Shown: positions 6,176 to 23,879 of the stretch, one piece after another
Layout: the number at the start of each line of letters is the position of its first letter
Numbering within the stretch: position 1 is the stretch's first letter
NCBI RefSeq assembly: GCF_900184735.1
Contig: NZ_LT855390.1
Span: 179,736 to 243,735, forward strand
DNA from: Paucisalibacillus globulus
GTDB taxonomy: Bacteria; Bacillota; Bacilli; Bacillales; Amphibacillaceae
Direction of reading: 5' to 3'
DNA length: 64,000 bases
Translations under genes and position numbers: made by a program
Notes under the pieces: model-generated
The model's input: the letters and a program-made list of their open reading frames with translations, nothing else
Told to the model about the DNA's origin: nothing
The model's database searches: none

Positions 6176-6201
6176 TGCCTTAAATATAAAGGATGGTACG
6201 G

Positions 6202-8067
6202 ATGAAAATTACAGATTTACTAAGAAAGGACATCATGATACTTGATTTGCAGGCAACTGAAAAAGAAGCTGCAATCGATGAGATGATTGAAAGCTTAAAT
6301 AGAAGTGGCATACTTACGGATGTTGCTGAATTTAAGGATGCTATTTTAAAACGTGAGGCACAAACTTCTACTGGTCTTGGTGATGGAATTGCAATGCCAC
6401 ATGCAAAAAATAAGGCAGTGAAAGAACCAACTGTTCTTTTTGCAAAAAGTAAAAAAGGGGTAGAATACGAATCCCTTGATGGACAACCAGCATATCTATT
6501 TTTCATGATTGCTGTACCTGAGGGAGGGAATAACACCCATTTAGAAACGTTAGCAGCACTTTCTAGACAGCTAATCGAAAAAGAATTCGTAGATCAATTA
6601 AAAGATGCAACAACTCCAGAGGAAGTCCAAGCTTTATTTGCTGAGGAACAAGAGCAAGTAGAAAAAGAAGATTCCAAAGATGAACAACAAGTGGGAGGTA
6701 AACCATTTGTTGTTGCTATTACTGCTTGTCCAACTGGTATTGCCCATACGTACATGGCAGAAGATGCATTAAAGAAAAAAGCCAAGGAAATGAATGTCGA
6801 TATCCGTGTAGAAACACAAGGGTCAGAAGGAGCGAAAAACACGTTAACCGAAGAGGAGATTAATCGTGCTAATGCTGTAATCATCGCAGCAAGTAAAAAA
6901 GTGGATTTGGCTCGTTTTAACGGAAAACATGTGATTCAACGGCCTGTTGCAGACGGCATTAAAAAGTCGGAAGAATTGATTACCAAAGCGGTAAAGCAAG
7001 ATGCTCCTATTTTACACAGTGATGGTAATGAACAAAAGGCAGATGATATGGAAGATAAAGCTAACTCTATTTGGGGTAGAATCTATAAAGATTTGATGAA
7101 CGGTATATCCCATATGCTTCCTTTTGTTGTTGGTGGTGGAATACTACTTGCACTTTCTTTCTTATTTGAAAGCGTATTAGGTAGTGATAGTGAAACATTT
7201 ATTTTCCTAAATGAGATTGGTGGAAATGCTTTTAATTTCTTAATCCCAATATTTGCTGGATTTATTGCATTAAGTATTGCAGATCGTCCAGGATTGATGC
7301 CAGGTATGGTCGGTGGATTAATTGCTGTTAATAGTAATGCAGGATTCTTAGGCGGACTAGTTGCCGGGTTCTTAGCTGGTTATGTTGTGCTTCTATTAAG
7401 AAAGGTTCTACGTGGTTTACCTAAGTCTCTTGAGGGGTTAAAACCAATATTACTATACCCGGTACTTGGTTTATTCTTTACTGGAATATTAATGTACTTT
7501 GTATTTGGTCCTATCTTTGCAACGATTAATACAGCAATGGTTGATTTCCTTCAAAACCTTGGAACAGGTAATGCGGTAATCTTAGGTGTCATTCTTGGAG
7601 GAATGATGGCAATTGATATGGGTGGACCATTTAATAAAGCCGCCTATGCGTTTTCTATCGGAATTTTCACGGATACTGGCGATGGAAGCTTAATGGCTGC
7701 GGTGATGGCTGGCGGTATGGTGCCACCACTGGCGATTGCATTAGCAAGCACGTTCTTTAAACGTAAATTCTCTGAGGAAGAACGTAAATCAGGCGTGACT
7801 AACTATGTAATGGGACTTTCTTTTATTACAGAAGGAGCCATTCCTTTCGCTGCTGCTGATCCGTTACGCGTAATTGGATCTTCAGTAATTGGTGCTGCAA
7901 TAGCCGGTGGCTTAACACAATTCTTTAACACAGCCATCCCAGCACCACACGGCGGTATATTTGTTATCCCACTAGCAGAAAACGCCATATACTTCCTCCT
8001 ATCCCTAGCAATCGGAGCTGTTATATCAGCACTATTACTAGGAGTATGGAGGAAACCAGTCCAGTAG
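6202..8067 (+). CDS. fruA: Fructose PTS transporter, EIIABC
   Basis: A three-domain PTS permease (621 aa) that imports fructose and phosphorylates it to fructose-1-phosphate. EIIA (residues ~1-150) has the phospho-His in AMPHAKN (H67). EIIB (~165-265) has the phospho-Cys in ITACPTGIAHTYMAEDAL (C176). EIIC (~285-615) is the multi-spanning membrane channel. The ATG at 6202 is preferred over the in-frame ATG at 6193 because it leaves a normal gap after AAAGG. It lies 26 nt after fruK in the same operon. The last ~50 codons have a strong shift in synonymous codon use (17 NNC to 7 NNT, 27 NNA to 2 NNG by hand count) just before an interspersed repeat. Confidence 0.96.
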   Translation: MKITDLLRKDIMILDLQATEKEAAIDEMIESLNRSGILTDVAEFKDAILKREAQTSTGLGDGIAMPHAKNKAVKEPTVLFAKSKKGVEYESLDGQPAYLFFMIAVPEGGNNTHLETLAALSRQLIEKEFVDQLKDATTPEEVQALFAEEQEQVEKEDSKDEQQVGGKPFVVAITACPTGIAHTYMAEDALKKKAKEMNVDIRVETQGSEGAKNTLTEEEINRANAVIIAASKKVDLARFNGKHVIQRPVADGIKKSEELITKAVKQDAPILHSDGNEQKADDMEDKANSIWGRIYKDLMNGISHMLPFVVGGGILLALSFLFESVLGSDSETFIFLNEIGGNAFNFLIPIFAGFIALSIADRPGLMPGMVGGLIAVNSNAGFLGGLVAGFLAGYVVLLLRKVLRGLPKSLEGLKPILLYPVLGLFFTGILMYFVFGPIFATINTAMVDFLQNLGTGNAVILGVILGGMMAIDMGGPFNKAAYAFSIGIFTDTGDGSLMAAVMAGGMVPPLAIALASTFFKRKFSEEERKSGVTNYVMGLSFITEGAIPFAAADPLRVIGSSVIGAAIAGGLTQFFNTAIPAPHGGIFVIPLAENAIYFLLSLAIGAVISALLLGVWRKPVQ

Positions 8068-8070
8068 GGA

Positions 8071-8100
8071 GTGCCTGGCACTCCCCGAATTTTGTCGAAT
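8071..8100 (+). repeat. Short interspersed repeat, copy 1
   Basis: First of four copies (8071, 11541, 21900, 23189) of a ~30-bp unit whose core reads GTGCCTGTCACTCCCCGAAT, followed by TTTGTCGAAT. This copy has GG for GT in the core. It begins 3 nt after the fruA stop. No transposase of its own is visible. It is related in look to REP-like elements of Bacillaceae, but the family is not named here. Confidence 0.8.
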
Positions 8101-8134
8101 GGGTTGTTAAATGTATAAAAAGTGAAGTGATGTA

Positions 8135-8611
8135 ATGTTTGAAACAAAACGATGTAGGATTAGAAGCTTTGAAGAGAAGGATTTAGACTCTTTCATGACC
8201 TATCGAAACAATGACGAGTGGATGAAGTTTCAGAGCTTTAAAAATAAGACCAAAGAAGAATATAGAAATGCTTTATTAGTTCCCCTAAACTTGGAAAATG
8301 GGACTCAACTAGCTTTTGCAGATAAAACTTCCGATACACTATTAGGAGATCTATTTATAAGAATTCAAGATAAGAGCATTTCCATGGGTTATAGTATTGA
8401 TCCTAAACATGCTAGGAAAGGTTATGTGACAGAGGTATTAGAGGAATTATTGCTGAGGCTAAGGACTCAGTATCCTAATTATCGGATTGTCGCGATGACT
8501 GAATCTGAAAATATTCCTTCAAAAAACTTATTAGTAAAATTAGGCTTTGTCTATGTACAGTGGATAGAAGAATGGCAAACAGAAATGTATGTGTATCGTT
8601 CTAGCCGCTAA
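8135..8611 (+). CDS. GNAT-family N-acetyltransferase
   Basis: A 158-aa acetyltransferase of the RimJ-like GNAT type. It begins MFETKRCRIRSFEEKDL, has the fold's core YSIDPKHARKGYVTEVLEELL (acetyl-CoA binding region; the usual RGKG-type loop is here ARKGY) and ends with the typical ESENIPSKNLLVKLGF motif. The substrate cannot be told. The ribosome site is weak (GAAGTGAT). It is convergent with the EthD-like gene at 8688. Confidence 0.85.
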   Translation: MFETKRCRIRSFEEKDLDSFMTYRNNDEWMKFQSFKNKTKEEYRNALLVPLNLENGTQLAFADKTSDTLLGDLFIRIQDKSISMGYSIDPKHARKGYVTEVLEELLLRLRTQYPNYRIVAMTESENIPSKNLLVKLGFVYVQWIEEWQTEMYVYRSSR

Positions 8612-8636
8612 TAAGCTTGTCTTAGCAGAATACATT

Positions 8637-8678
8637 ATTCGGATCTTTTGCTGTGATTTGAAGGCAAAAAATCCGAAT
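8637..8678. terminator. Possible bidirectional terminator
   Basis: ATTCGGAT and ATCCGAAT pair, with an inner TTTTGC/GCAAAA stem, between two convergent genes. The T-tract is poor, so it may be only a stem-loop. Confidence 0.4.
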
Positions 8679-8687
8679 ATGTAAGTG

Positions 8688-8990
8688 CTAATCAATAATC
8701 GTTATGATCGGTGGCTTATTCAAGAACTGAGAAAAATTAGAGAAATCTTCTTCAGACGCTTTTGCTTCTGGACTTGCAAATGCTTCTTGTAGCTTTTCAA
8801 TATTTTCAAATTCTAATATTGTGATGAGATACAAGTTTAAGTCCGTATTCTGTGAATCAACAACACGATGTACCGAGTCATTTATTAAATTTGGTATCTT
8901 CCTTCCTAGTGGTACATGAACATTAAAATAATGCTCATCAAATCCTTCCTTATCCTTTGGTTCCTCATACATAATAACCATTTTTGCCAT
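8688..8990 (-). CDS. EthD-family reductase/dimeric ferredoxin-like protein
   Basis: A 100-aa protein starting MAKMVIMYEEPKDKEGFDEHYFNVHVPLGRKIP, the N-terminal pattern of the EthD family (dimeric alpha-beta barrel; the conserved YxxxHxPL is present as YFNVHVPL). It is named after ethyl tert-butyl ether degradation, but most members have no known function. The start is the ATG at 8990, with AGGAG nine bases upstream; a TTG at 9008 would put the ribosome site inside the gene. Confidence 0.85.
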   Translation of the reverse strand: MAKMVIMYEEPKDKEGFDEHYFNVHVPLGRKIPNLINDSVHRVVDSQNTDLNLYLITILEFENIEKLQEAFASPEAKASEEDFSNFSQFLNKPPIITIID

Positions 8991-9120
8991 AATCTTATCT
9001 CCTCTCAAGTAACCAGTAGTAGAATATATTACGTTTCAGTAAATTTATTCCAATTAATAAACGTTCAATTCAAACATAACAATATTATTTTCTGAAATAC
9101 TATTACTGGAGGTGAGTAGC

Positions 9121-9252
9121 ATGTCAAAACGAAAAGCAAATCCGTTAACTAATGGATTAAGTTCACCAGAAATTGAAGGTCAAGGTACTACAAATAGAGA
9201 AACGGGAAGAAAAATGGTTGATTCTTCAAGGAAGAAGAAAAAGCGTACTTAA
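9121..9252 (+). CDS. Small basic protein, YuzL-like
   Basis: A 43-residue ORF with an excellent ribosome site (GGAGGTGAGTAGC before the ATG) and a strong terminator 18 nt after its stop. The sequence is Lys/Arg/Ser/Thr rich: MSKRKANPLTNGLSSPEIEG at the start and a KKKKRT tail. The 'N/S-P...GLSS..VEG.G' pattern resembles the YuzL family of short Bacillus proteins (possibly sporulation-related). The existence of the gene is well supported; the family name is tentative. Confidence 0.7.
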   Translation: MSKRKANPLTNGLSSPEIEGQGTTNRETGRKMVDSSRKKKKRT

Positions 9253-9270
9253 GACTATAGTCAATATGAA

Positions 9271-9310
9271 AAACAGGTGCACTGGAGGATTTATTGCACC
9301 TGTTTTTTTC
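9271..9310 (+). terminator. Rho-independent terminator after the small YuzL-like gene
   Basis: AACAGGTGCA pairs with TGCACCTGTT, followed by a run of T. Confidence 0.9.
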
Positions 9311-9379
9311 TTTTCAATATTAATTCCTAGATGAGTTATATGGTTTTTGTAAATTTTTTGCAAATACATAAAAATTACT

Positions 9380-9415
9380 TTGACAGGTAGAGTACATTAT
9401 CATATAATTACTCTA
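9380..9415 (+). promoter_or_regulatory. SigA-type promoter with PadR operator candidate
   Basis: TTGACA at 9380-9385 and TATAAT at 9403-9408 are separated by exactly 17 bp. An inverted repeat, TAGAGTA and TACTCTA, spans the spacer and the -10 box, centred near 9402. A second small palindrome (TCTATC-A-GATAGA) follows at 9412. The position just before a PadR gene makes this the likely autorepression site. Confidence 0.75.
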
Positions 9416-9464
9416 TCAGATAGAACTCTATGTGACAAAGTACTTTGTGGAAAGGAGCAGTAAT

Positions 9465-9794
9465 TTGATAAGAAGTGATATTATTCGTGGACATTTAGAT
9501 TCCATTATTTTGCGGTTAATCTTAGAAAAGGATCGTTACGGCTATGATATTTCAAAGGAGATTGCCCATCGTACTAATCAGCGATTTGAGATAAAAGAAG
9601 CCACGCTGTATGCCGTTTTTCAACGATTGGAGAAAAAGGAATTAATTGAATCCTATTTTGGAAGTGAATCTAAGGGTGGTAAAAGGAAGTATTACCGTAT
9701 TACAACACTAGGTAAAGCTTACTTTAAAGAGACGATTGAAGAATGGAAAGAGCTGAAGGATGTAATCGATATATTTATGGAGGGATTGGATTGA
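9465..9794 (+). CDS. PadR-family transcriptional regulator
   Basis: A 109-aa winged-helix repressor of the PadR type (IRGHLDSIILRLILEKDRYGYDI, then EATLYAVFQRLEKKELI and RKYYRITTLGKAYF). The start is taken as the TTG at 9465, which has AAAGGAG eight bases upstream; the GTG at 9432 has no ribosome site. It begins an operon with two membrane proteins (next gene overlaps by 3 nt). PadR genes of this layout typically repress their own membrane-protein operon in response to membrane or drug stress; the signal here is unknown. Confidence 0.9.
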   Translation: MIRSDIIRGHLDSIILRLILEKDRYGYDISKEIAHRTNQRFEIKEATLYAVFQRLEKKELIESYFGSESKGGKRKYYRITTLGKAYFKETIEEWKELKDVIDIFMEGLD

Positions 9795-10216
9795 AAAAGT
9801 TAACTCAGCATGTACATCATTTATTTAAGGACATTCCAGATAGTGACCGGAAAGAGGTAGTTATGCAAGAAGTGCTACAGAACTTGGAAGAGAAGGTCTG
9901 GGATTTAATAGAGCAGGGAAAAGAAGAAGAAGATGCGATTAATAAAGCTATCGTTGAATTTGGGGATATTGATGAATTAAAAAGTGAACTTGGAGTAGTT
10001 ACAGAAGTATCTAATAATGACCCAACCATCTTGAAAAATAGAAAATTAAGTTTAGAGTATTCGATCTGGGGTAGCTTGTTGATTATTGGCTTGTTTACCT
10101 TTATTAACTTTTACTATTCTCCTCAGGTAATCTGGTTTGTATATCCAACATTTGCTGTGCTCTGGTGGCCCCTATCGATGTATTATCGTTGGTTAAAAGT
10201 AAAAAGGGGGGAGTAA
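9791..10216 (+). CDS. HAAS-type membrane protein with one C-terminal LWWPLS repeat
   Basis: A 141-aa protein starting at a TTG that overlaps the PadR stop, with GGAGGG six bases before it. Residues ~1-75 are a helical, acidic HAAS-like cytoplasmic domain (HLFKDIPDSDR..., then AIVEFGDIDELKSELG). Two membrane segments follow. The C-terminus NFYYSPQVIWFVYP then TFAVLWWPLSMYY is nearly the same as four repeat units in the next gene. This domain is commonly found downstream of PadR regulators. The function is unknown. Confidence 0.85.
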   Translation: MKKLTQHVHHLFKDIPDSDRKEVVMQEVLQNLEEKVWDLIEQGKEEEDAINKAIVEFGDIDELKSELGVVTEVSNNDPTILKNRKLSLEYSIWGSLLIIGLFTFINFYYSPQVIWFVYPTFAVLWWPLSMYYRWLKVKRGE

Positions 10217-10217
10217 C

Positions 10218-10850
10218 ATGAAAAAGTATCAATGGGGTTTTGTTGCAACTGGATCTATCATGACCATCCTATTTTTAATGGTGGTTAACTTTATTACAAG
10301 CGAGGAGTATCCTTGGTTTATTTATCCTAGTGTTTTATTGTTATTACTTCCGCTTGGTCTTTACTGCATCTTTGAAAAGAAGCATGTCCTCTTTTCGATG
10401 GTCAGTTGTTTCATTGTAACCGTCCTATTAATTACGGAGAATTATATAAAAACACCAGAATATCCATGGGTGTTATATGTTGTTGCACCTATTATTCTTT
10501 GGCCAATTATAGCCATTCTAGGTAAACGGAATGCTAATATGTTTGTAGCCAGTTTCATTAGTACTATATTTATTCTGTATTATGTTCTCTTAAATATTTA
10601 TTTAGCTCCATCAAATCCGTGGGCTATTTTCCCGGCATTTGTTATTCTATGGTGGCCACTGACCTTTTATCACATCAAGAGACAATCCTTCTTTGCCTTT
10701 TCTGTTACCGCCTCACTATTCATTAGTTTGTTTTTTATTAGTATTAATGTTTTCTATTCACCGAATACTATCTGGGCTATTTATCCAATCTTTGCTGTAT
10801 TATGGTGGCCTTTGAGTATGTATTATTTTCATTATCGGAAAGTCATCTGA
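10218..10850 (+). CDS. Multi-repeat membrane protein
   Basis: A 210-aa integral membrane protein made of four tandem ~50-residue units, each a membrane helix, a short outside loop ending in (Y/N)PW or IWA, and a second helix ending in a (L/I)xxPL or WWPL motif. Loops are EEYPWFIYP, PEYPWVLY, SNPWAIFP and NTIWAIYP; units 3 and 4 end in ILWWPLTFY and VLWWPLSMYY. The last unit is close to the tail of the previous protein, so both arose by duplication. GGGGGGAG precedes the ATG, one base after the previous stop. No known function. Confidence 0.85.
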   Translation: MKKYQWGFVATGSIMTILFLMVVNFITSEEYPWFIYPSVLLLLLPLGLYCIFEKKHVLFSMVSCFIVTVLLITENYIKTPEYPWVLYVVAPIILWPIIAILGKRNANMFVASFISTIFILYYVLLNIYLAPSNPWAIFPAFVILWWPLTFYHIKRQSFFAFSVTASLFISLFFISINVFYSPNTIWAIYPIFAVLWWPLSMYYFHYRKVI

Positions 10851-10993
10851 ATGGATTGTTCTATACTGAGGTACTCTTATGTTTATATTCATGATCACTA
10901 AGAAAAGTATACGTTGTTCAGAAAATAATTCTAAAACCTTATTAATGTTTAATATTATTTAGTAATAACTTTTTTACAAAGGTGGATACAAGA

Positions 10994-11512
10994 ATGAACT
11001 TTGAACTTAATGAAGCTATTGAGATTTTGGAAAGAACACCAAAAACATTGGAATATTTTCTTTCTGGTTTATCTATTAATTGGCTTCAGTGTAATGAGGG
11101 GGAGGATACTTGGAATCCTTCCCAGGTAATGGATCATTTAATTGAAGGAGATAAAACAGATTGGATACCTAGAGTGGAAGCTATTTTGCTTGCTGAAAGA
11201 GATATCCGATTTCCACCATATGATCGATTTTCCCATCTTAATAAACTAGAGAGGACAATAGAAGAGAAACTAGCGGAATTCCAAACAGTAAGGGTGGAAA
11301 GTTTAGAAAAAATAAGAAATCTTATTAATTCTAATTCCGATCTTGAATTAACAGGTATCCATCCCGAATTTGGCGAAGTGAAGCTTAAGCAATTACTCTC
11401 GACTTGGACAGTTCATGACTTAACCCATATCGCTCAAATTGTTCGCGTTATGGCAAAACGATATAAACGTGATGTTGGACCTTGGATGTCCTATTTAGGA
11501 ATCTTACAATAG
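10994..11512 (+). CDS. DinB-family protein
   Basis: A 172-aa four-helix DinB/YfiT-like protein. It contains the family landmarks [13 protein letters not shown] (first metal His), then [21 protein letters not shown] with the two later histidines. Such proteins bind a divalent metal and are often thiol-dependent transferases or stress proteins; the substrate is unknown. The ATG at 10994 is chosen because AAAGGTGG lies eight bases before it; the GTG at 10982 is inside the ribosome site. Confidence 0.88.
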
Positions 11513-11540
11513 GTGCAAGCTACTACTTGTGTTTGGAAGC

Positions 11541-11571
11541 ATTCGACAAAAATCGGGTAGTGACAGGCACC
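11541..11571 (-). repeat. Short interspersed repeat, copy 2 (inverted)
   Basis: Reads on the minus strand as GGTGCCTGTCACTACCCGAT followed by TTTTGTCGAAT. It lies between the dinB-like and araC-like genes. The AraC coding sequence just to its right is unusually rich in G and T on the plus strand, i.e. A and C on the repeat's own strand, as for copies 1 and 3. Confidence 0.8.
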
Positions 11572-11591
11572 TTATAGGGGGGGGAGTGGTG

Positions 11592-12377
11592 ATGCTAGAG
11601 CTAAATCCGGAGTGTTTTATTTTGGAGCCTGTTTTTGCTACGATTACTTGTGAGCCTAGTTGGCAATGGAAACGGAAGGTCCCTCTTCCTAATTATGATT
11701 TGGTGTATGTTTGGAAAGGGGAGGGGATGTTAGTTGTAAATGGGGAGGAATACATCATATCGCGGGGGAGTTGTTTTTTCTTCCATCCTGGTGACTGGGT
11801 AACGGCAACACATAATCCACATAATCCTCTCCAAATGACCTACATTCACTTTAATTTTAGGAACGAACCAGCTATTAAACCAATAGAGTACCGTGTTATC
11901 CAAGACACCATTATGTTTGAATCTCTCCTTACTAGATATGTTCGGCTGTTCTTAATAGAAACTTTCGGAGCAGAAATAGAAGCAAAACTAATCCTTAAGC
12001 AATTAATGATTCAGTTGTTGCGTGAAGATCAGCAGGGTGAAAGAAATCTTCCGAACATGCAGCAGTCCCTCCTATCCGCAATTAAAGAAGTTGCAAACCA
12101 CATACAACAACATCCTGGTTATCATCATACAGTAGAGAGTCTTGCTACACGTGCTAACTTCTCCCCTCGTTATTTCTCCCGTAAATTCAAGGAAATCATT
12201 GGTGAATCTGTCCGGTCTTATATTATTCAGGTACGGATAAAAAGAGCGGAGCATTTACTACGTTACACCGGAATGACCGTAACCGAGGTAGCAGAGGCAT
12301 TAGGCTATAGCGACCTTCATTTTTTTAGCCGTCAATTTAAACAATATACTGGTAAAAGTCCATCTGAAATACGCTAA
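11592..12377 (+). CDS. AraC-family transcriptional regulator
   Basis: A 261-aa regulator with an N-terminal cupin-like sensor domain (WKGEGMLVVNGEEY, FFFHPGDWVTA) and two C-terminal helix-turn-helix units (VESLATRANFSPRYFSRKFKEI and MTVTEVAEALGYSDLHFFSRQFKQYTGKSPSEIR, the classic AraC signature). The start is the ATG at 11592 with GGGGGAG before it; the longer frame from 11529 would translate the interspersed repeat. The first ~60 codons are G/T-rich at third positions, unlike the rest of the gene. A typical carbohydrate-type regulator; no target gene is adjacent. Confidence 0.92.
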   Translation: MLELNPECFILEPVFATITCEPSWQWKRKVPLPNYDLVYVWKGEGMLVVNGEEYIISRGSCFFFHPGDWVTATHNPHNPLQMTYIHFNFRNEPAIKPIEYRVIQDTIMFESLLTRYVRLFLIETFGAEIEAKLILKQLMIQLLREDQQGERNLPNMQQSLLSAIKEVANHIQQHPGYHHTVESLATRANFSPRYFSRKFKEIIGESVRSYIIQVRIKRAEHLLRYTGMTVTEVAEALGYSDLHFFSRQFKQYTGKSPSEIR

Positions 12378-12400
12378 TTTCATATCGATATATTTATGAG

Positions 12401-12433
12401 CACCTTACCAAGATTGGTTAAAGGTGTTTTTTA
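12401..12433 (+). terminator. Rho-independent terminator after araC-like gene
   Basis: CACCTTACC pairs with GGTTAAAGGTG, followed by TTTTTT. Confidence 0.85.
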
Positions 12434-12566
12434 ATTTGTAAAAAAAGAGATGCAAAATAATGCAAATTTTATATCAAACAGTCTAAATATTTTTACCGAC
12501 TACGATGCTACTATTTAACTACATCCACAAAGAAGTAACAAATATCAAGGAAAAGAGTGATGATAC

Positions 12567-14417: not shown

Positions 14418-14468
14418 GAACGGTGACTCGAACAATACAAAAATAATAAAAATACAGGAGGAAGAAAT

Positions 14469-15797
14469 ATGGGGAAATTATTCACGAAGGAAGAAATATT
14501 AAAAATCGCAAAGGAGGAAAATGTCCGTTATATTCGACTTCAATTCACTGATTTATTTGGCATGATAAAAAATGTAGAAATACCAGTACGTCAGCTAGAA
14601 AAAGCGCTGGATAATCAAATCATGTTTGATGGGTCATCAATAGAAGGATTTGTCCGTATTGAAGAATCTGACATGTATTTATACCCAGATTTAACTACAT
14701 GGCTCATCTTTCCATGGGAAGTAAATCAAAGCAAGATTGCGAGATTAATCTGTGATGTGCATTTACCAGATGGAACTGCATTTCCTGGTGACCCTCGGGG
14801 AATATTAAAGAAGATATTAGGAGAAGCAAAGAAATTAGGATTTACAGCGATGAATGTTGGACCTGAGCCGGAGTTCTTCTTGTTTAAAACAGACCCTAGT
14901 GGAAATCCAACGATGGAACTGAACGACAATGGAGGTTATTTTGACTTATCACCGGTAGATCTTGGTGAAAACTGTAGAAGAGAAATCGTTCTAACTTTAG
15001 AAGAAATGGGATTTGAAATTGAGGCCTCCCACCATGAAGTGGCTCCGGGACAGCATGAAATTGACTTTAAGTATGCAGATGCAGTGGAAGCGGCGGACCA
15101 AATTCAGACTTTTAAGCTTGTGGTGAAAAATATAGCAAAAAAACATGGGCTATATGCAACATTTATGCCAAAGCCACTGTTTGGTGTAAATGGTTCTGGA
15201 ATGCACTGCCACCAGTCACTCTTCCGTGGAAAGGACAATGCTTTTTATGACGAAAAGGATGAACGTGGGCTAAGTGAGACAGCGAAACAATATCTGGCAG
15301 GTATTCTAAAGCATGCTTACAGTTTTGCGGCAATCACTAACCCGATAATTAACTCATATAAGCGCTTAGTACCCGGTTATGAGGCACCTAGCTATATTGC
15401 ATGGTCAGAGAAAAATCGAAGTCCGCTAGTCCGTGTTCCAGCAAGCAGAGGAATGAGCACCCGAATTGAGTTAAGAAATCCTGATCCATCTGCAAATCCT
15501 TATCTTGCCCTAGGAGTCATGCTTGCCGCAGGATTGGATGGTATTAAAAATCGACTTGAATTATGTGACCCTGTTAATCAAAATATCTATCAAATGACTG
15601 AGGCGGAAAAGGAACGTATCGGAATTACAAGTCTCCCAAAGGATCTCGAGGAAGCCATTAGTGCTCTTGAAGGAAATGAAGTTATCACTAGTGTACTGGG
15701 CGAACACATCAGTAACCATTTTATAATTGCTAAACGAATGGAATGGGAAGAGTATCGTACTCAAGTGCATCCTTGGGAAAGGGAGAAGTATAAGTGA
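14469..15797 (+). CDS. glnA: Type I glutamine synthetase
   Basis: A 442-aa glutamine synthetase (GSI-alpha length) that forms glutamine from glutamate, ammonia and ATP. Seen are the [20 protein letters not shown] latch, [12 protein letters not shown] metal/ATP-site block, and [12 protein letters not shown]. The adenylylation-site sequence of enterobacterial enzymes is absent, as in other Firmicutes. AGGAGGAAGAAAT precedes the ATG. It is not preceded by glnR, so it may be a second glutamine synthetase in a unit with asnO rather than the housekeeping glnRA copy; this cannot be settled within the window. Confidence 0.95.
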
Positions 15798-15860
15798 GGG
15801 TTACGATACTAAATAGGATTTTTGCTAGACAGTTTAAGTGATATTTGTAAAGTACTAGAA

Positions 15861-15893
15861 GCACCTGCAAACTTTGATTTGTAGGTGCCTCTT
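15861..15893 (+). terminator. Stem-loop after glnA
   Basis: GCACCTGCAAA pairs with TTTGTAGGTGC (one mismatch), followed by a weak CTCTTAT tract. It lies between convergent glnA and the HMA gene and may serve both. Confidence 0.6.
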
Positions 15894-15909
15894 ATGTAGT
15901 AGAAAAGAT

Positions 15910-16146
15910 TTAATTCTCTATTGTTTCTTCTTTAATAACATTTGCTTCAAATCCCATCTTTTTAATCCTCGAGATGATTTGGTTCATACTTAATAAGTCA
16001 CTATTAAATGTTACATACCCATTCTCATCCTCATAAGATACAGTTACTTTACTAACCCCTTCTAATTTCGAAATGGATCGTTCCACTTTTTTAGGGCAGT
16101 CTTTACAATGCATCCCTTTGATTTCTAAAAAAACAATCTCAGACAT
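15910..16146 (-). CDS. Heavy-metal-associated (HMA) domain protein
   Basis: A 78-aa single-domain metallochaperone-like protein. It has the metal-binding loop GMHCKDCPKK (the usual MxCxxC is here HCKDC, with one residue less variation but both cysteines present) and the ferredoxin-like HMA fold (VERSISKLEGVSKVTVSYED, then IISRIKKMGFEANV). It probably binds Cu(I) or a similar soft metal. The start is the ATG at 16146 with AAGGTGGTG upstream; a TTG three bases earlier is less likely. It is divergent from the His-rich lipoprotein. Confidence 0.85.
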   Translation of the reverse strand: MSEIVFLEIKGMHCKDCPKKVERSISKLEGVSKVTVSYEDENGYVTFNSDLLSMNQIISRIKKMGFEANVIKEETIEN

Positions 16147-16362
16147 CAATTAACACCACCTTGTAATAATTTATTTGTCTGTACATTATATGATTAGATT
16201 CATCATTAAATTTTAGAAAAAATGTATTGGAGTCATTTAGAACAATTTTGTGAATTTTATTCTTTAAAGCGTAATGTTTCACAAGGTATTCATTGATTAG
16301 TTTTCCTAATACTGGTAGTTTAGAAAGAGCAAACTGAGTATTAGTGTAGGAGGTTAACAATT

Positions 16363-17121
16363 ATGAAAAGATGGACTTGGATGTTCGTGTTAGTAATCTT
16401 AATAATGATGTTATCTGCATGTAATGACGATTCAGAGAAAGATACCTCACAGGATACAGAGGAACTAAAGACATTGGCAGTTGAATTTGAAGTTCCAGAG
16501 AAAGCAAGTGTCGGTGAAACAGTTGAATTGAAGGCTACGGTTACATATGGTGATGAAATTGTAAACGATGCCGATGAAGTTTCTTTTGAATATTGGTTAC
16601 AAGAAAATGAAGACGATAGTACGACAATAGAAGCTATTAATAATGAGGATGGTACCTATACTGCGGAAGTTTCCTTTGCTACGGATGGTGTATATGAAAT
16701 ATATGCTCATACAACGGCTAGAGATTTACACACCATGCCAAAAGAATCTATTACGGTTGGAGAGGGTATAGCTGCTGGGGAGGAACATCAGCATGAGGAA
16801 GGCCATGAACACTCTAGCCATACAGAAGGATTTGGTATGCACTTTGTTCAACCAGAAGATGTACAAGTGAATGAAGAAATAAACCTGACTGTGCACTTAG
16901 AGATGGACAATGAACCGCTTGAGGAAGCTAGAGTTCGTTATGAAATTTATCAAGAGGATTCCGAAACGCCTGACTGGGTGGATACAAAAGAATCCGTATC
17001 CGGTGAATATTCTAGTTCATATTCCTTTGAACAAGAGGGTGTGTACACTGTTGTGATTCATGTGCAAAATAATGAAGGTCTCCATGAACACACTGAAAAA
17101 CAGATAGAAGTCAATAAATAA
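16363..17121 (+). CDS. FixH/YtkA-like lipoprotein with His-rich linker
   Basis: A 252-aa lipoprotein: signal MKRWTWMFVLVILIMMLSAC with the lipobox LSAC. Two YtkA/FixH-like beta-sandwich domains follow (residues ~35-135: KASVGETVELKATV...NEDGTYTAEVSF; residues ~160-250: VNEEINLTVHLEM...SGEYSSSYSF). They are joined by a His/Glu-rich linker, EEHQHEEGHEHSSHTEG, which looks metal-binding. Together with the divergent HMA gene this suggests copper handling outside the membrane, an inference from composition and context. AGGAGG precedes the ATG at good spacing. Confidence 0.85.
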   Translation: MKRWTWMFVLVILIMMLSACNDDSEKDTSQDTEELKTLAVEFEVPEKASVGETVELKATVTYGDEIVNDADEVSFEYWLQENEDDSTTIEAINNEDGTYTAEVSFATDGVYEIYAHTTARDLHTMPKESITVGEGIAAGEEHQHEEGHEHSSHTEGFGMHFVQPEDVQVNEEINLTVHLEMDNEPLEEARVRYEIYQEDSETPDWVDTKESVSGEYSSSYSFEQEGVYTVVIHVQNNEGLHEHTEKQIEVNK

Positions 17122-17128
17122 GTGAAAT

Positions 17129-17168
17129 AAGGGGAGAATCTTTTACCAGTAGATTCTTCCCCTTTTTG
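17129..17168. terminator. Terminator between convergent genes
   Basis: AAGGGGAGAATCT pairs with AGATTCTTCCCCTT, followed by TTTGTATT. It is probably used from both sides. Confidence 0.85.
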
Positions 17169-17178
17169 TATTATTAAA

Positions 17179-17796
17179 TTAATTATTCTCTGCCATCCTA
17201 CCCAATGGGCCTTCTTCATTAATAATATCTTGTATATCATAAACAGAAATCGGAAACATAGGAAAACCATACACATATGGTGTGATTTCATATAATTGGA
17301 AATAGAGTACGATGGTTTTATCCGCGATATAGAAGTCCTGATTAGGGCTAATTTCGGTAAAATCTTCAATAAGTTGAATATCTCGCTGGGCGATTTGTTC
17401 CTTTACGATGGCGGATAACCTTTCCACGTAGTTGCTGTTTGGTTTAAATAAATCTTTAAGTTCACATTTCTTCTGAGTTTGTAGATCAAACGTTAACGAT
17501 TTGATATAGGTCATACCATGGGCTGCTTTATCATGATAGGTGTAATTAGTGAGGGAGATACTTAGGACATCTCGTTGGTTATTTTTAAGCTCATACGTAC
17601 CAAGCATTTCTACGACGGTTGATGGCATGTTTTCAATCTGCATATTAATTAGTGCTTGTGCCTCTTGAATGATGGATTGATTAATAAATCGTTCCATTGA
17701 TTGATCTCGCATCTGTACTGCTTGAGGGTAATATATATTTTTCTTAGAACCACCACTAACTCTAAACGTCATAATCTGGACTGGAAAAGTGGGCAA
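17179..17796 (-). CDS. DUF3298/DUF4163-type protein
   Basis: About 205 aa, resembling the extracellular sensor part of RsiV-like proteins (DUF4163 then DUF3298: YPQAVQMRDQSMERFINQSI, and LKDLFKPNSNYVERLSAIVKEQI, DFYIADKTIVLYFQLYEITPY). No signal peptide or membrane segment is visible, so it is likely cytosolic or lacks its anchor. The frame is open from an ATG at 17805, but AAGGA touches that ATG; the TTG at 17796 has nine bases of spacing and is preferred. The function is unknown. Confidence 0.75.
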   Translation of the reverse strand: MPTFPVQIMTFRVSGGSKKNIYYPQAVQMRDQSMERFINQSIIQEAQALINMQIENMPSTVVEMLGTYELKNNQRDVLSISLTNYTYHDKAAHGMTYIKSLTFDLQTQKKCELKDLFKPNSNYVERLSAIVKEQIAQRDIQLIEDFTEISPNQDFYIADKTIVLYFQLYEITPYVYGFPMFPISVYDIQDIINEEGPLGRMAENN

Positions 17797-17905
17797 TATA
17801 CTCATTCCTTTTTTAATGTATCTTATTCTTTAGGAATGGGTATGTGACTAGTTTGATTCAACCTAGATGGTGTGTTGTTGTAAAAGTTATATTAGTTTCA
17901 TGAAG

Positions 17906-18334
17906 TCATCCAAAACCAAAAAAATCAGTGGTAAGTAGTAAAAGCAATAGGAAAATGATAAATGCTAATTGGCTAAGGGTGAATAGATAAGCATTCCTAT
18001 TTTCAACATATCTCCATTCCATATAAGCCCGAGCAATTTCGGAAACGATAAGGAATAAAAAGATCAATGAGTGTACTTCCAAAAACCATAATCTCTCTGA
18101 TAAATCTCTGGTGATATTAAAGGAAAAACCGATAAATAAGAGGAAAATAAATGTAATTCTAATGGTCCAATCGATTATTTTATGTTGGTGATTGATATGA
18201 TGATATGAAAAGAATTTCTTTCTCTTTACCCTTAGCAATTTTCTCATAATAGTATTAAACAAAAATAATAGTAGTCCGAATATGGCCAGAATTAGAAAGA
18301 GTTCCAGCCAAAAGTTTGGTCCAAAACCATACAT
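17906..18334 (-). CDS. DUF4181 membrane protein
   Basis: A 142-aa protein with four hydrophobic segments (about residues 9-30, 53-73, 85-100 and 118-138). The YMEWRYVENRNAYLFTL block near residue 106 is the hallmark of DUF4181, a small Bacillus membrane family with no known function. AAGGGGATGAG precedes the ATG. It is a single gene, divergent from the CBO0543-type gene. Confidence 0.8.
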   Translation of the reverse strand: MYGFGPNFWLELFLILAIFGLLLFLFNTIMRKLLRVKRKKFFSYHHINHQHKIIDWTIRITFIFLLFIGFSFNITRDLSERLWFLEVHSLIFLFLIVSEIARAYMEWRYVENRNAYLFTLSQLAFIIFLLLLLLTTDFFGFG

Positions 18335-18461
18335 ATATGCTCATCCCCTTGTAATTAAATCCAAAACTTTACCTCTTACCTAATGTTCAACTTTTCTTGA
18401 GATAACAAAACACATAAAAATCAAGTCCACTAGCCAACCTATAGCTATAGAGGTGAATGAA

Positions 18462-18950
18462 ATGCGCAATAGGTTAGAAAAAACGATTGAACTTTCAGCA
18501 TGGGTCATAATGATATTGTTACTGTTCAAGTTCGTCCCAAAAAATAGAATTCGAGAAGCTCAAGTATCTTTTTTGTTTAAACAAGCCGTTACATGGCTTT
18601 TTGGATTACTTGTAGTCGAAAAGAAATTAATTTCCTATCCTTATCGGCTTTTTTTCAAGAAAACAATAAAATCAAGTTTTACGTTTGAATACTTTGTTTA
18701 TCCATCGTTATGTGTGTTATTTAACTTGTATTACCCAGATAAGCGGAACTATCCGATTAAGCTGCTCTATTATTTATTTCATTCAGCAATTATTACCGGA
18801 TTGGAAGTAGTTCTACTTAAGTATACGAAACTAATTAAATATAAAAAGTGGACATGGTACTGGAGTCTCCTATCGATGACGTTTACGAATTACTTATCCC
18901 ATGTATACTTTAAATGGTTCTTTAAAGAGCAAGTAAGCCGACAAAAATAA
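18462..18950 (+). CDS. CBO0543-family membrane protein
   Basis: A 162-aa protein with about five membrane segments, of the CBO0543 family widespread in spore-forming Firmicutes (YPSLCVLFNLYYPD, then KLLYYLFHSAIITGLEVVLLKYT). The ATG at 18462 follows AGAGGTGA at five bases; a GTG at 18453 overlaps that site. Unknown function. Confidence 0.75.
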   Translation: MRNRLEKTIELSAWVIMILLLFKFVPKNRIREAQVSFLFKQAVTWLFGLLVVEKKLISYPYRLFFKKTIKSSFTFEYFVYPSLCVLFNLYYPDKRNYPIKLLYYLFHSAIITGLEVVLLKYTKLIKYKKWTWYWSLLSMTFTNYLSHVYFKWFFKEQVSRQK

Positions 18951-19062
18951 ATCAAGGAGTCTTTAAGTGAGGAAACAGACTTTTCTGAAATGTTTATGTA
19001 TAGTCTAACAAAAAATATTTATTACATAATAATATTGTTTCTAAGAATTTTTAAAAATAAGG

Positions 19063-19304
19063 AAGAGGCTGGGACATAACTAAAAGTATAAGTTGAGAAC
19101 CTGAACGTAACGCCACATCAGCTCCGGAAATATACGGAGACTCCTGCGGGAGGATAGGCATCGGTGAGACCCCGGAAGAGCTTTAGCTCTGAGGAGGCTC
19201 ACCAGCCGCCCGCGGAAAGCGTAGTATATTTCCGGAGCGGGTCTATGCGCTTTTCATGTTCGTTCGGATTTTAATCAACTAAATATCTTTTGTCCCAGCC
19301 TCTT
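19063..19304. repeat. MITE-like element with 14-bp terminal inverted repeats
   Basis: AAGAGGCTGGGACA at 19063-19076 is matched exactly by its reverse complement at 19291-19304. The inside is GC-rich against the AT-rich surroundings and contains nested stems: CCGGAAATATAC near 19125 with GTATATTTCCGG near 19226, CTCCTGCGGGAGG, and TGAGACCCCGG...GAGGCTCACC. No ORF is present. Elements of this look (CTCCTGCGGGA..., GTGAGACCCCG) are common in Bacillaceae intergenic regions. It ends five bases before the stop of the reductase gene, so it may act as its terminator. It accounts for most of the gene-free stretch 18951-19308. Confidence 0.9.
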
Positions 19305-19308
19305 TATT

Positions 19309-19863
19309 TTAACTATCTTTTACCCGCTCATTAATGCTGCGCTGTAAGAAGATCATTTCTTCTGCAAGATGATGGATACGCTTGGAAACTCCGTTATTCA
19401 TGATCTCATCACTTTCCTCGTCAAAATCATCATTATGTACGAATACATTTGTTGATGGGACCAAACCTCGTAAATAGGAGAGGATTGGTTTTAAGTGATT
19501 TTCGGGTACGAGAAAATGCTTTTCTGATGCACCAGTTGCTATGATTCCGGTTACCTTATTTTTGAGCGCGTATTCTGGGAAGAAGTCTAGTAGGTTTTTT
19601 AATACGCCTGAGATAGATGCTTGATAAATGGGGGTACCGAATACAACAAAGTCGGCGTCCAGTATTTTTTTTACAACATTCCATGTGTCATCGTTATAAT
19701 AGGTTAATGGTTCTCCACGACAAAATTCAACTTCATATTCTCTTAAATCAATTAACTCAGTACGAATACTTGAATCGATTCGATTAGCAGCTGCCAAGAC
19801 ATCATGAATCGCTTGCGATGTCTTATTTCCAGCTAGTGTTCCAGATACTCCAACCAGTTTCAA
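19309..19863 (-). CDS. NADPH-dependent FMN reductase
   Basis: A 184-aa flavodoxin-fold oxidoreductase of the FMN_red family (SsuE/azoreductase-like). It begins MKLVGVSGTLAGNKTSQAI, the FMN phosphate-binding loop, and has FVVFGTPIYQASISGVLKNLLDFFPEYALKNK, the flavin-stacking and dimer region, followed by the strand VTGIIATGAS. It would reduce flavin or a quinone/azo compound with NAD(P)H; the substrate is not clear. It is a single gene, with the MITE directly downstream. Confidence 0.88.
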   Translation of the reverse strand: MKLVGVSGTLAGNKTSQAIHDVLAAANRIDSSIRTELIDLREYEVEFCRGEPLTYYNDDTWNVVKKILDADFVVFGTPIYQASISGVLKNLLDFFPEYALKNKVTGIIATGASEKHFLVPENHLKPILSYLRGLVPSTNVFVHNDDFDEESDEIMNNGVSKRIHHLAEEMIFLQRSINERVKDS

Positions 19864-19891
19864 TATTCATATTCCCCCTATTACAATTTAT

Positions 19892-20023
19892 TTATTTCTC
19901 CTCTTCAAAATCGGAAGAATCATTATAATCATATCGGAATCCATCTTTTTTAGCTAATTGTTTTCCTTTTTGGTTTTGTTGGTTCTGTCTTTGTTTTGGA
20001 ATAGCTTTCTTATTGTTAGTCAT
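19892..20023 (-). CDS. Small Lys/Asn/Gln-rich protein
   Basis: A 43-residue ORF with a strong ribosome site (AGGAGG, ten bases before the ATG at 20023). It begins MTNNKKAIPKQRQNQQNQKG and ends acidic (DYNDSSDFEEEK). The basic, Gln/Asn-rich N-terminus resembles small sporulation-associated or acid-soluble spore proteins, but no family is recognised. It lies 28 nt upstream of the reductase on the same strand and may share its transcript. Confidence 0.6.
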   Translation of the reverse strand: MTNNKKAIPKQRQNQQNQKGKQLAKKDGFRYDYNDSSDFEEEK

Positions 20024-20148
20024 ATATTTTTTTCCTCCTATAACTTTTTTACTATTGTTTCAAAATAAAAGAGTACTATTCATTTAATGAGTAAGTGTTG
20101 TATGGAGATGCGCATACTAATCCTATGACAGACAGGGGAGGTGATTAG

Positions 20149-20442
20149 ATGAAAGTTTTATTAGTGTTAGGGAGTATTATTTTTCCTTTGCTTATGTATG
20201 TTGTACAAAAGAAATGGGACGGTATTCACGCTGTGTTTAATCTAATTGCAATAATTTCAGCTTTAGTGTTTGGAAATATAGCTACCTTGTCCATATATCA
20301 GATTATTAAAGACAACACCGTATTAATGACGAATATCCATGCGATTTTTCTAAATCCATTTTTCTTAATTACGGGTTCTTATTTAGGAGTCTATATCCTC
20401 TACTTATTGCTTGTTTCATTAGTGGGAAATCTAAAGAGCTGA
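20149..20442 (+). CDS. Small membrane protein, three segments
   Basis: A 97-aa hydrophobic protein with helices at about residues 2-18, 25-50 and 68-92. GGGGAGGTGATTAG precedes the ATG. No family is recognised. It stands alone between the small basic gene (divergent) and the DUF4317 gene. Confidence 0.65.
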   Translation: MKVLLVLGSIIFPLLMYVVQKKWDGIHAVFNLIAIISALVFGNIATLSIYQIIKDNTVLMTNIHAIFLNPFFLITGSYLGVYILYLLLVSLVGNLKS

Positions 20443-20706
20443 TAATTTAGACCATGTGTAATTATATTCTTTAGTCAATCCAACCTCGCATTAATCTGCT
20501 TCTAATACTTCTTACTTTTCTGAGCCTAGATTATCCTCTCTTTAGGTTGCCCTTCTATAGCAGTTATTTGTCTCGTGTGGAAATTTTTATTATTACATCT
20601 TATTTTCAGACATAGTCATATTGATTATGTAAGAAATCAATTCATGTTAAAATGATAGAATGTGTGTGGATATTATGACGATAATCTGCTTAGGAGTGTA
20701 ATAACA

Positions 20707-21888
20707 TTGAATAAAAAAGATATAGCTAATTTTAAACGACAGTTCAAAGTAAGCAATGATTTATTGAAAATACATGAAATTTTCTACGTATACATCATGA
20801 AGGAATCAAGTGATATCTATCATCATCAAAGTTTTCCCTTTGAGATGCTTGAGGAAGAACAGAAAGAGCTATTTATGGATAACTTTAAAAAAGTTCTATC
20901 CGGTCAGTTGGATGAGAAGTTATTTGAGTTAAAGTTCCAACGGGATGTGGAGGATAGTAGCCAGTTGATTCTTCATCAAGGGTTATTGAGTAGAGATACA
21001 GATGAATGGAAGAGCCATATGCTACGTTTGGTAGAGAAAATGTTGAATGATAAGCAATATGAGATGGATATTGTGGTTACCTTTATTCGTGGTGAATATA
21101 TGAAGCCTGCTAAGCGCCGTAATGAGGAATCAGAAACAAGTGAGAGAGATACAGTATTCTCGAATCCATTTATATTGTGTAGCATGAATAGCACCCAAGA
21201 TCCAAAAAAAGAGTTGCTTTTTGACTATGTAGAGAAGCAGTTTAAATACAATATTGTGGTTGACCCAATTATAAATTTAAAAGCCCCATTATCAGGATTT
21301 CTGTTCCCATGCTTTTCGGATAATGCGGCAGATGTCAATCACGTATTATATTCCGCTGGAAAGAAGTATGAGTTGAGCTATCATTTCATCGAAGAAGTTT
21401 TGAATGCGGAAGAAACGATGACAGCTGAAGATGACAAGATTGTCTTTGAAGAAATAGTGAAAAAAGTGGCTGGAGATAAAATTAATACATCGACCCTATC
21501 CAATGTGTACGATGAGATTCATCGCGTCATTGAAGAAAATGAAGAGGAAGAAGTTCCGAAATTAGATTATAAAGATGTAGAAAAAGTGTTACGAACTAGT
21601 GGGGTAAAAGATGTGGATACAGAAAAAGTAGAAGAGGCGTTTAAGACGGTAATTGACGATGGGAATTATGAGTTAAAGGCTAGCAATATCCTGCCGAAAT
21701 ACTCGTCTAAATCGATAAAAGTAAAAACAAAAGTAGCAGACCTATCCATCAGCCCACCAGAATTACGCCATGTACGCCAAGTACACCTAAACGGAAAAAT
21801 CTACCTCATGATCGAACTGGAAGAAAACACCATGATCGAAGGCTTCGAAATGGTACCAGAAGCACTCTTCCAAAAAGCAGAAGAATAA
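20707..21888 (+). CDS. DUF4317 domain protein
   Basis: A 393-aa protein of the DUF4317 family. The TTG at 20707 is chosen because the family begins MNKKDIA.(F/I).RQFK and AGGAG lies upstream; the frame is open further up without a ribosome site. Landmarks are DLLKIHEIFYVYIMKESSDIYHH and ELFMDNFKKVLSGQLDEKLFELKFQ. The function is unknown. The last ~49 codons show extreme synonymous bias (19 NNC to 1 NNT; about 25 NNA to 1 NNG by hand count), unlike the gene's middle, just before repeat copy 3. Confidence 0.88.
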   Translation: MNKKDIANFKRQFKVSNDLLKIHEIFYVYIMKESSDIYHHQSFPFEMLEEEQKELFMDNFKKVLSGQLDEKLFELKFQRDVEDSSQLILHQGLLSRDTDEWKSHMLRLVEKMLNDKQYEMDIVVTFIRGEYMKPAKRRNEESETSERDTVFSNPFILCSMNSTQDPKKELLFDYVEKQFKYNIVVDPIINLKAPLSGFLFPCFSDNAADVNHVLYSAGKKYELSYHFIEEVLNAEETMTAEDDKIVFEEIVKKVAGDKINTSTLSNVYDEIHRVIEENEEEEVPKLDYKDVEKVLRTSGVKDVDTEKVEEAFKTVIDDGNYELKASNILPKYSSKSIKVKTKVADLSISPPELRHVRQVHLNGKIYLMIELEENTMIEGFEMVPEALFQKAEE

Positions 21889-21899
21889 ATTTAGGTGTA

Positions 21900-21930
21900 G
21901 GTGCCTGTCACTCCCCGAATTTTGTCGAAT
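21900..21930 (+). repeat. Short interspersed repeat, copy 3
   Basis: GGTGCCTGTCACTCCCCGAA then TTTTGTCGAAT, 12 nt after the DUF4317 stop. It is identical in orientation and position (just after a gene's 3' end) to copy 1. Confidence 0.85.
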
Positions 21931-22041
21931 AACCTCGGGGGGTTACTGGATCCTAATTGTAATAATTTCACTTTCTTAAAAAAATGGGTAGTATATAGAG
22001 AGATACTATATAGTTCTAATATACATAGAGGAGAGAGTGCA

Positions 22042-22380
22042 ATGAATCTACCTAATTGCCCAAAATGTAATTCGGAATATACTTATGAAGATGGGACCAT
22101 GTTAGTTTGCCCTGAATGTGGCCATGAGTGGTTGGCCAATCAGGAAACAGAAACTGACGAGGACAGTAACGTAATTAAAGATGCAAACGGAAATGTCTTA
22201 AGCGACGGGGACACGATTACTGTAATAAAGGACCTGAAAGTTAAAGGAAGTTCATCTGTCTTAAAACAGGGAACAAAGGTGAAAAATATTCGCTTAGTTG
22301 ATGGAGACCATGATATTGATTGTAAGATTGATGGTTTTGGTCCGATGAAACTTAAATCAGAATTTGTAAAGAAAATATAA
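22042..22380 (+). CDS. yjdM: YjdM/PhnA-type zinc-ribbon protein
   Basis: A 112-aa protein starting [18 protein letters not shown] with a zinc ribbon (CPKC...CPEC) and a C-terminal SH3-like domain ([25 protein letters not shown], then KLKSEFVKK). This is the YjdM family, formerly PhnA; despite the old name it is not a phosphonoacetate hydrolase and its role is unclear. The ATG at 22042 has GAGGAGAG before it; the frame upstream crosses the repeat and is not coding. Confidence 0.92.
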
Positions 22381-22400
22381 GCCTTTAACAAATGAATATA

Positions 22401-22437
22401 GCACTCCTAAATGGCAGCATTTAGGAGTGCTTTTTTA
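22401..22437 (+). terminator. Rho-independent terminator after yjdM
   Basis: GCACTCCTAAAT pairs perfectly with ATTTAGGAGTGC, followed by TTTTTT. Confidence 0.93.
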
Positions 22438-22592
22438 GTAGATTTTAGTAACAAAAAAACCTGACACATTGGTGTAAGAATGTGATATAATGCAAAAATC
22501 AGTGTGTAGAGATATTGGTCATTAAGGTGATCAAAAATATATGTCGCATGATACGTCTGCCATCTGAAATATTAGATATGGAGATGACAGCT

Positions 22593-23090: not shown

Positions 23091-23120
23091 TCTTCTAACT
23101 GAATCTAATATTACTTATAA

Positions 23121-23161
23121 AAGTCGTTTAGTTATGAGCTCCAAACTAAACGGCTTTTTAT
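23121..23161 (+). terminator. Rho-independent terminator
   Basis: AAGTCGTTTAGTT pairs with AACTAAACGGCTT, followed by TTTTAT. Confidence 0.88.
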
Positions 23162-23188
23162 ATTGGGTAACCATTAATAAATGACAAA

Positions 23189-23219
23189 TTTAGACAAATA
23201 TCGGGGAGTGACAGGCACC
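23189..23219 (-). repeat. Short interspersed repeat, copy 4 (inverted)
   Basis: Reads on the minus strand as GGTGCCTGTCACTCCCCGAT then ATTTGTCTAAA. It lies just outside the IS110 remnant; the plus strand to its right is G-rich for about 30 nt (AAAAAGGGGC...TTGGGGTAG). Confidence 0.75.
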
Positions 23220-23368
23220 AAAAAGGGGCATAATATTGGGGTAGTGTAAAAAGTTCTATGAAAAGCCCATAAAAATAAAATACCCACACTTTTGATGGTG
23301 GAAATCTTACCGCCATCGCTCTTGACAAACACGACAATGGTTTACGGGTGTGGTGTCAAGGGCGAAAT

Positions 23369-23875: not shown

Positions 23876-23879
23876 TTCG

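Follow-up and report, generated by a model that had tools for sequence, protein, structure and literature searches.

The genome of Paucisalibacillus globulus (GCF_900184735.1) carries scattered copies of a short repeat, GTGCCTGTCACTCCCC, four of which lie in the stretch of contig NZ_LT855390.1 analysed here (64,000 nucleotides, positions 179,736 to 243,735; hereafter the window). Genes that abut the repeat are enriched in A and C at third codon positions on the strand that runs into it. We think it likely that this skew records changes accumulated through a local, strand-polar transition process anchored at repeats served by RAYT-type transposases, probably arising through nick-primed DNA synthesis that is prone to G·T errors.

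A polar skew beside copies of the repeat

In the window, GTGCCTGTCACTCCCC (at most 2 mismatches) is found at 8071 (+), 11570 (-), 21901 (+) and 23218 (-), as compared with a mean of 0.01 sites in shuffled sequence. A sequence-only reading of this stretch had reported a strand-specific third-position skew beside three of these copies. Our recounts agree with its hand counts when third positions -170 to -10 are compared with those of the same gene more than 400 bp off, on the strand reading into the repeat (p = 4e-5 to 3e-13). Copy 1 (GTGCCTGGCACTCCCCGAATTTTGTCGAAT, 8071..8100, +) lies 3 bp past the stop codon of a fruA-like PTS gene (6193-8067), the skewed part of which is its 3' end (7890..8067, +; third positions A28 C16 G1 T7, p = 7e-7). 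Copy 2 (11541..11570, -) is inverted and overlaps the called 5' end of an AraC-family gene (11529-12377, +); over the first codons of this gene (11571..11760) it is the minus strand, reading into the repeat, that is A/C-rich (A22 C17 G1 T8, p = 4e-5). Copy 3 (21901..21930, +) lies 13 bp past the stop codon of a DUF4317 gene (20662-21888), the 3' end of which (21715..21888, +) has third positions A28 C19 G1 T1 (p = 3e-13). The fourth copy (23189..23218, -) is footprint-free, with an upstream A+C of 0.45. Its upstream flank holds an IS110-family transposase fragment (23369-23875, -), and insertion here (23189-23875) may have replaced an older flank. The assignments of the PTS gene and of the IS110-family fragment are Pfam-based.

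The same three genes were compared with those of relatives (given as G-numbers, G000 being the source genome; L-numbers denote fetched loci). The A+C share at third codon positions, read on the strand running into the repeat (AC3), of fruA orthologues is 0.73 in G124, which has the repeat, 0.47 in G113, which lacks it, and 0.73 in G098, where the repeat is decayed. Three of the four AraC-gene orthologues without the repeat have an A+C share of 0.39-0.53, and the fourth, in G113, stands at 0.76 with no repeat found. For the DUF4317 gene, values are 0.77-0.79 in relatives with the repeat (n = 2), 0.44-0.50 in four of the five without it, and 0.62 in G120, which has a different repeat there. All three genomes with the repeat at this gene (the source and 2 relatives) are skewed, and those without it mostly unskewed.

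Across the source genome, which holds 54 exact GTGCCTG[TG]CACT cores, upstream A+C (-160 to -40) is higher than the locus background in 47 of the 53 evaluable copies and lower in 6, so that the skew which the sequence-only reading had proposed to look for at other copies is present there. At -120 to -80 (49 distinct copies), A/(A+G) at third positions is 0.92, up from 0.71, and C/(C+T) is 0.72, up from 0.28. The upstream third-position purine fraction stays steady at 0.49-0.55. The skew has faded by about -250, and the downstream side is flat. AC3 is at least 0.70 at 35 of 43 coding copies; in controls from the same fetched own-genome loci, all lying over 800 bp away from the nearest copy, the same was true of 2/194 gene 3' ends, 3/197 gene 5' ends and 4/1114 55-codon windows.

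The polarity is independent of the direction of the gene and of the contig strand. Skew is alike for copies on either contig strand (AC3 0.78 vs 0.75) and, beyond the last 40 bp, for genes running toward or away from the repeat. The purine fraction at fourfold sites is 0.47-0.61 at distances above 40 bp; nearer than that, it is 0.67 (75 sites) where genes run toward the repeat and 0.23 (22 sites) where they run away. Open reading frames were called mechanically by length, which may have misassigned a few genes; the same effect is seen in raw composition, which makes no use of reading frames.

Orthologues and the spectrum of changes

Comparison of 13 skewed genes with up to 8 relatives each gave 63 pairs, 14 with and 49 without the exact repeat core. 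Near AC3 was 0.48-0.85 in the 14 pairs with the core; among the 49 without it, 34 were below 0.60 and 15 at or above this value. A decayed repeat, defined by the right orientation and a score attained by at most 2% of shuffles, was present in 8 of these 15 skewed orthologues, as compared with 2 of the 34 unskewed ones (odds ratio 18, p = 5e-4). As for the other 7 skewed orthologues, the DUF4317 gene of G120 has a different repeat, and the remaining 6 are without trace of any known repeat. The sequence-only reading had named equal skew in orthologues lacking the repeat as grounds for refutation; its claim survives this check, 34 of the 49 being unskewed, with 7 of the 15 skewed ones carrying no trace of this repeat.

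We then tallied the changes that separate these genes from orthologues without the exact repeat (identity above 0.6; those with decayed repeats were counted as without). In counts that pool several relatives per gene, and so are not counts of independent events, synonymous changes near the repeat comprise 150 G>A and 297 T>C but 15 A>G and 24 C>T, whereas far from it they are balanced (G>A 685, T>C 741, A>G 790, C>T 691). Transversions make up 395/1719 changes near the repeat (23.0%) and 2413/11584 far from it (20.8%), the corresponding figures among repeat-sharing orthologues being 14.7% and 15.0%. Transitions are essentially the sole class displaced beside the repeat. Net conversion is estimated at ~69% for sites with G and ~49% for those with T, with a per-site rate ratio near 2, and neighbouring bases influence the changes modestly.

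The sequence-only reading had also taken the protein to be unchanged, which is roughly right, except that nonsynonymous sites share the directional bias: in codons with a differing amino acid, changes at first and second positions in the same direction and its reverse number 150:80 near the repeat and 540:655 far from it (odds ratio 2.27, p = 2e-8). Amino-acid identity falls from 0.833 far from the repeat to 0.781 close to it, gene ends being often less conserved anyway. Since displacement is limited to transitions and extends to nonsynonymous sites, the pattern speaks for mutation rather than for selection on codons or RNA. Changes polarised to the time after the split (T>C 35 near vs 228 far, G>A 5 vs 75, A>G 10 vs 226 and C>T 10 vs 65), which are based on one outgroup and are only suggestive, hint at a continuing process.

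Other species, transposases and a second repeat family

The repeat pattern is present in 34 of 146 genomes of the family. The polarity seen in the source genome recurs in G128, G072, Oceanobacillus massiliensis (G087), O. salinisoli, O. damuensis, Cerasibacillus terrae (G010) and Virgibacillus alimentarius, as well as, with 1-3 copies each, in O. rekensis, Ornithinibacillus contaminans, Alkalibacillus and Lederbergia. Across species the footprint reaches about 100 to 250 bp.

The repeats are probably ends on which a RAYT-type Y1 (HUH) single-strand transposase acts, its gene lying between copies. RAYT-type proteins lie amid repeats at 8 loci, with a repeat on both sides in 7 and inverted in 5, although the homologue search covered fetched loci that were mostly chosen for the repeat, so that this alone proves no link. 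At L159 and L258 the copies on both sides have the same orientation, and L144 has one side only, with a partial match. The Y1_Tnp domain was found above the Pfam cut-off in the 4 proteins tested (E = 9e-15 to 1.3e-13), and both the HUH and YIH(L/Q)NP motifs in 6/6 proteins inspected. The YIHxNP motif is a hallmark of RAYTs. In whole-genome searches, G010 and G087 have one Y1_Tnp gene each and G000 two, one of these between repeat copies; the second G000 gene (G000:C5:199897-200253, L061) is of IS200 type (E = 2e-40) and is not among the mapped copies. Because Y1_Tnp genes occur in 110/146 genomes, many of them IS200-like, gene presence alone is no predictor of the repeat. Judged by its sequence, the protein is a RAYT/TnpA-REP member (REPtrons, TIRtrons), as it resembles these in having a Y1_Tnp domain with HUH and YIH(L/Q)NP and in being encoded between repeat copies, many of which are solitary and some paired, scattered through the genome. 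The repeat differs from theirs in having no GTAG-tagged stem-loop: in place of a GTAG tag at the stem-loop foot, only a G at -1 is near-invariant.

The sister species G120 has a second, unrelated palindromic repeat family, GGGTCAGGTCCCTTGTCCC, at 82 places (at most 2 mismatches; L463-L492). Beside 41 distinct copies, 33 of them with coding flanks, AC3 is 0.67 at -100 to -60 (p = 1e-11) and 0.72 at -60 to -30 (p = 7e-13). This family has its own RAYT between copies, at 36% identity, and inverted copies are found there too. A second family with its own RAYT and the same A/C skew suggests that the footprint belongs to RAYT-served repeats rather than to one sequence.

Discussion

The footprint itself is observed; the enzyme and the chemistry behind it are proposed. 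Under the process that we favour, G would turn to A and T to C along ~200 bp of the strand that runs into the repeat, with the complementary C>T and A>G changes on its partner, after which purifying selection on the protein would leave mostly synonymous changes. The transposase, or a host enzyme drawn to the repeat, may nick its outer edge and leave a 3' end, from which outward DNA synthesis would copy the A/C-rich strand. On the template, the outcome of G-T and T-G wobble errors, perhaps together with mismatch-repair strand choice, would be precisely G>A and T>C, and rare rounds across evolutionary time could saturate the flank. As G>A and T>C are both outcomes of G-T wobble mispairs, one primed copying direction would account for both, and for the modest neighbour dependence that is seen. 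One of the explanations in the sequence-only reading, that the repeat triggers a directional process of mutation or repair, has held up, given that transitions alone are displaced and that the effect is mainly one-sided, indifferent to gene direction, linked to an intact or decayed repeat and felt at nonsynonymous sites too. More tentatively, RAYT transposases of this family might be natural sequence-addressed mutators, their repeats starting recurrent one-directional wobble-error synthesis at dozens of genes per genome, an idea that we would sooner doubt than assert.

Several observations weigh against the process that we favour. Six of the 15 skewed orthologues without the exact repeat are traceless (three genes in G113, two in G128 and one in G106; conceivably old footprints whose repeat has been lost), and the choice of loci for the RAYT search, noted above, counts on the same side. 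Noncoding flanks are weakly affected (A+C 0.534 vs 0.498, purine fraction 0.45 vs 0.50) and tight hairpin pairs are little skewed (AC3 0.57 in 8 copies vs 0.80 in 46 others); the tight pair at L041 is also found in G128, yet is unskewed on one side. There is little or no effect in Salirhabdus, Oceanobacillus arenosus, O. halotolerans and other Lentibacillus (5-7 copies each) or at the single Ornithinibacillus caprae copy. On the downstream side, a weak skew of opposite sign occurs in G072 and in the other species pooled (AC3 0.41-0.44, p = 0.001-0.02 per bin) but not in G000. Several copies in Lentibacillus sediminis (G001) are G/T-rich (AC3 0.29-0.32 at -60 to -5, p = 1e-4 to 3e-4), others being neutral. 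Against orthologues, the reversal was upheld at the argH copy and in part at an rlmD-like copy, where the orthologues are also low in A+C; argG had too few sites, and the fourth gene searched yielded no orthologue for comparison. A fixed polarity does not explain these reversed copies, which lie at L157, L159 and L201. Finally, the REPs of Escherichia coli K-12, which are also RAYT-linked, show nothing comparable when searched with two patterns (28 and 32 sites in 350 kb; largest local shift ~0.13). Two shifts there reached nominal significance, an AC3 of 0.34 vs 0.46 just before one pattern and of 0.56-0.61 just after both, as compared with 0.53-0.56 farther downstream. Not every RAYT system, therefore, leaves a footprint.

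Among other explanations, deamination could produce an identical polarity and spectrum if the strand opposite the A/C-rich one stayed unpaired next to the repeat and lost amino groups from its C and A (C>T, A>G), whether through damage or enzymatically; exposure of the opposite strand could then explain the reversed L. sediminis copies. However, the estimated per-site rate ratio is near 2, and deamination would have to strike adenine almost as frequently as cytosine. Spontaneous adenine deamination is far slower than that of cytosine, the near-equality of G>A and T>C argues against simple cytosine deamination, and the modest neighbour dependence is unlike that of known deaminases, so that we regard this account as unlikely. 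If selection kept the transcript or the single strand leading into the repeat free of structure and poor in G, for Rho loading or transposase access, it would fit that a strand of A and C only is unable to self-pair and that the A/C-rich strand reads into the repeat in most species examined. The sequence-only reading had put forward G-poor RNA for Rho loading, but this can hardly be sustained: a Rho-dependent terminator implies a G-poor, C-rich transcript of the upstream gene, and genes transcribed away from the repeat are equally skewed. In addition, third-position purine content is nearly constant, transversions stay near the far rate (23.0% vs 20.8%), amino-acid-changing sites share the directional bias, some L. 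sediminis copies are G/T-rich, and dozens of selected changes per site would be required at some 50 scattered copies. Taken together, these make selection improbable.

Transcription-associated mutagenesis from an outward promoter within the repeat, exposing the non-template strand, would fit the polarity, and the repeat contains a -35-like GTGACA; one -35/-10 pair lies beside the DUF4317 copy, where shuffles have a mean of 1.0. TATAAT-like hexamers at a spacing of 16-18 are nevertheless unenriched (49 G000, 39 G128 and 55 O. massiliensis flanks), and genes distant from repeats have no comparable skew, which leaves this explanation very improbable. The lowest probability of all goes to an insertion-site preference, whereby the element would integrate next to pre-existing A/C-rich sequence. 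One-sided composition would be expected in that case, and 15/49 orthologues without the exact repeat are A/C-rich too; but 34/49 are not, 8 of those 15 hold a decayed repeat, A/C-rich windows far from repeats are very rare (4/1114 at AC3 of at least 0.70), and orthologue comparison points to the A/C-rich state not being ancestral at most sites.

Set beside known systems, the footprint resembles the action of diversity-generating retroelements, in which template adenines are changed to any base by means of a reverse transcriptase and a template repeat, in being an element-directed, one-sided and base-biased mutation of adjacent coding DNA, and differs in that displacement is limited to transitions, of G and T. 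Its spectrum mirrors, on the opposite strand, the C>T and A>G asymmetry that mitochondrial and replicating DNA show on one strand of a whole genome or replichore, whereas here it spans ~200 bp per repeat and affects both contig strands alike. As in fungal repeat-induced point mutation, which acts as C>T inside duplicated DNA itself, transitions are drawn to repeats; here, in contrast, unique flanks are altered, the searched repeat cores being intact by design.

If our reading is correct, a short scattered repeat that sets which strand mutates would represent a new kind of local bacterial mutation process, with a footprint that covers 100-250 bp and is nearly saturated at some copies. From the footprint one could read what RAYT transposases possibly do to the repeats they serve, a matter that would thereby become testable. 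It confounds analyses of codon usage, GC skew and dN/dS in repeat-adjacent genes, and the process might become a laboratory mutagenesis tool. Should RAYTs indeed act as mutators, theirs would be an element-directed mutation system needing neither reverse transcriptase nor template repeat, and a lasting directional transition process at one end of dozens of genes per genome. In the portions of the literature within reach, the origin and spread of RAYT repeats are described as poorly understood, and the accessible portions of PMC8266576, PMC3733652 and PMC6006769 mention no mutation footprint for them. A literature search, with most subscription papers and bioRxiv preprints beyond its reach, returned no account of such a footprint.

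Repeat structure and minor observations

The positions before GTGCC (-12 to -1; G000 and G128) hold a weak motif consisting of CC, a short gap, a T-rich run and the near-invariant G, which may be the true edge of the element, and partial extra copies of GGTGCCTG are often found just upstream of the repeat. The accessible text on TIRYT gives GGGGWSAS as the motif of its terminal repeats; the complement of the repeat, GGGGAGTG, fits 7/8 of these positions and so falls one base short. A related repeat (GGTGCCTGTCCCC plus tail) had no match in 199 genomes of the order with a pattern that was perhaps too strict, and an Rfam scan of window positions 7500-24500 gave no RNA family match at the gathering score.

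A single repeat copy folds no better than shuffles (z = -0.23), whereas a tight pair folds (z = -16). Tight inverted pairs with little footprint lie at L041:4001/4059 and 5089/5147, L045:4001/4058 and L060:4001/4059. Youth of the copies was considered as the sole cause of unskewed flanks and rejected on the L041 pair, common to G128 and still unskewed on one side, in an age test limited by several genes beside unskewed copies having no orthologue among the compared loci.

By eye, the repeat or a decayed form of it follows a pdxS-like gene in several species (pdxR-pdxS: L043, L129, L083 and L278), a recurrence that possibly reflects independent insertions at one hot spot. The names pdxS, pdxR, argH, argG and rlmD were assigned by reading the sequences. 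In the window, the reading frame of the AraC-family gene runs through the inverted repeat (11529-11591), so that its likelier start is the in-frame ATG at 11592; a frame at L044 has a comparable extension through the repeat (VTGT).

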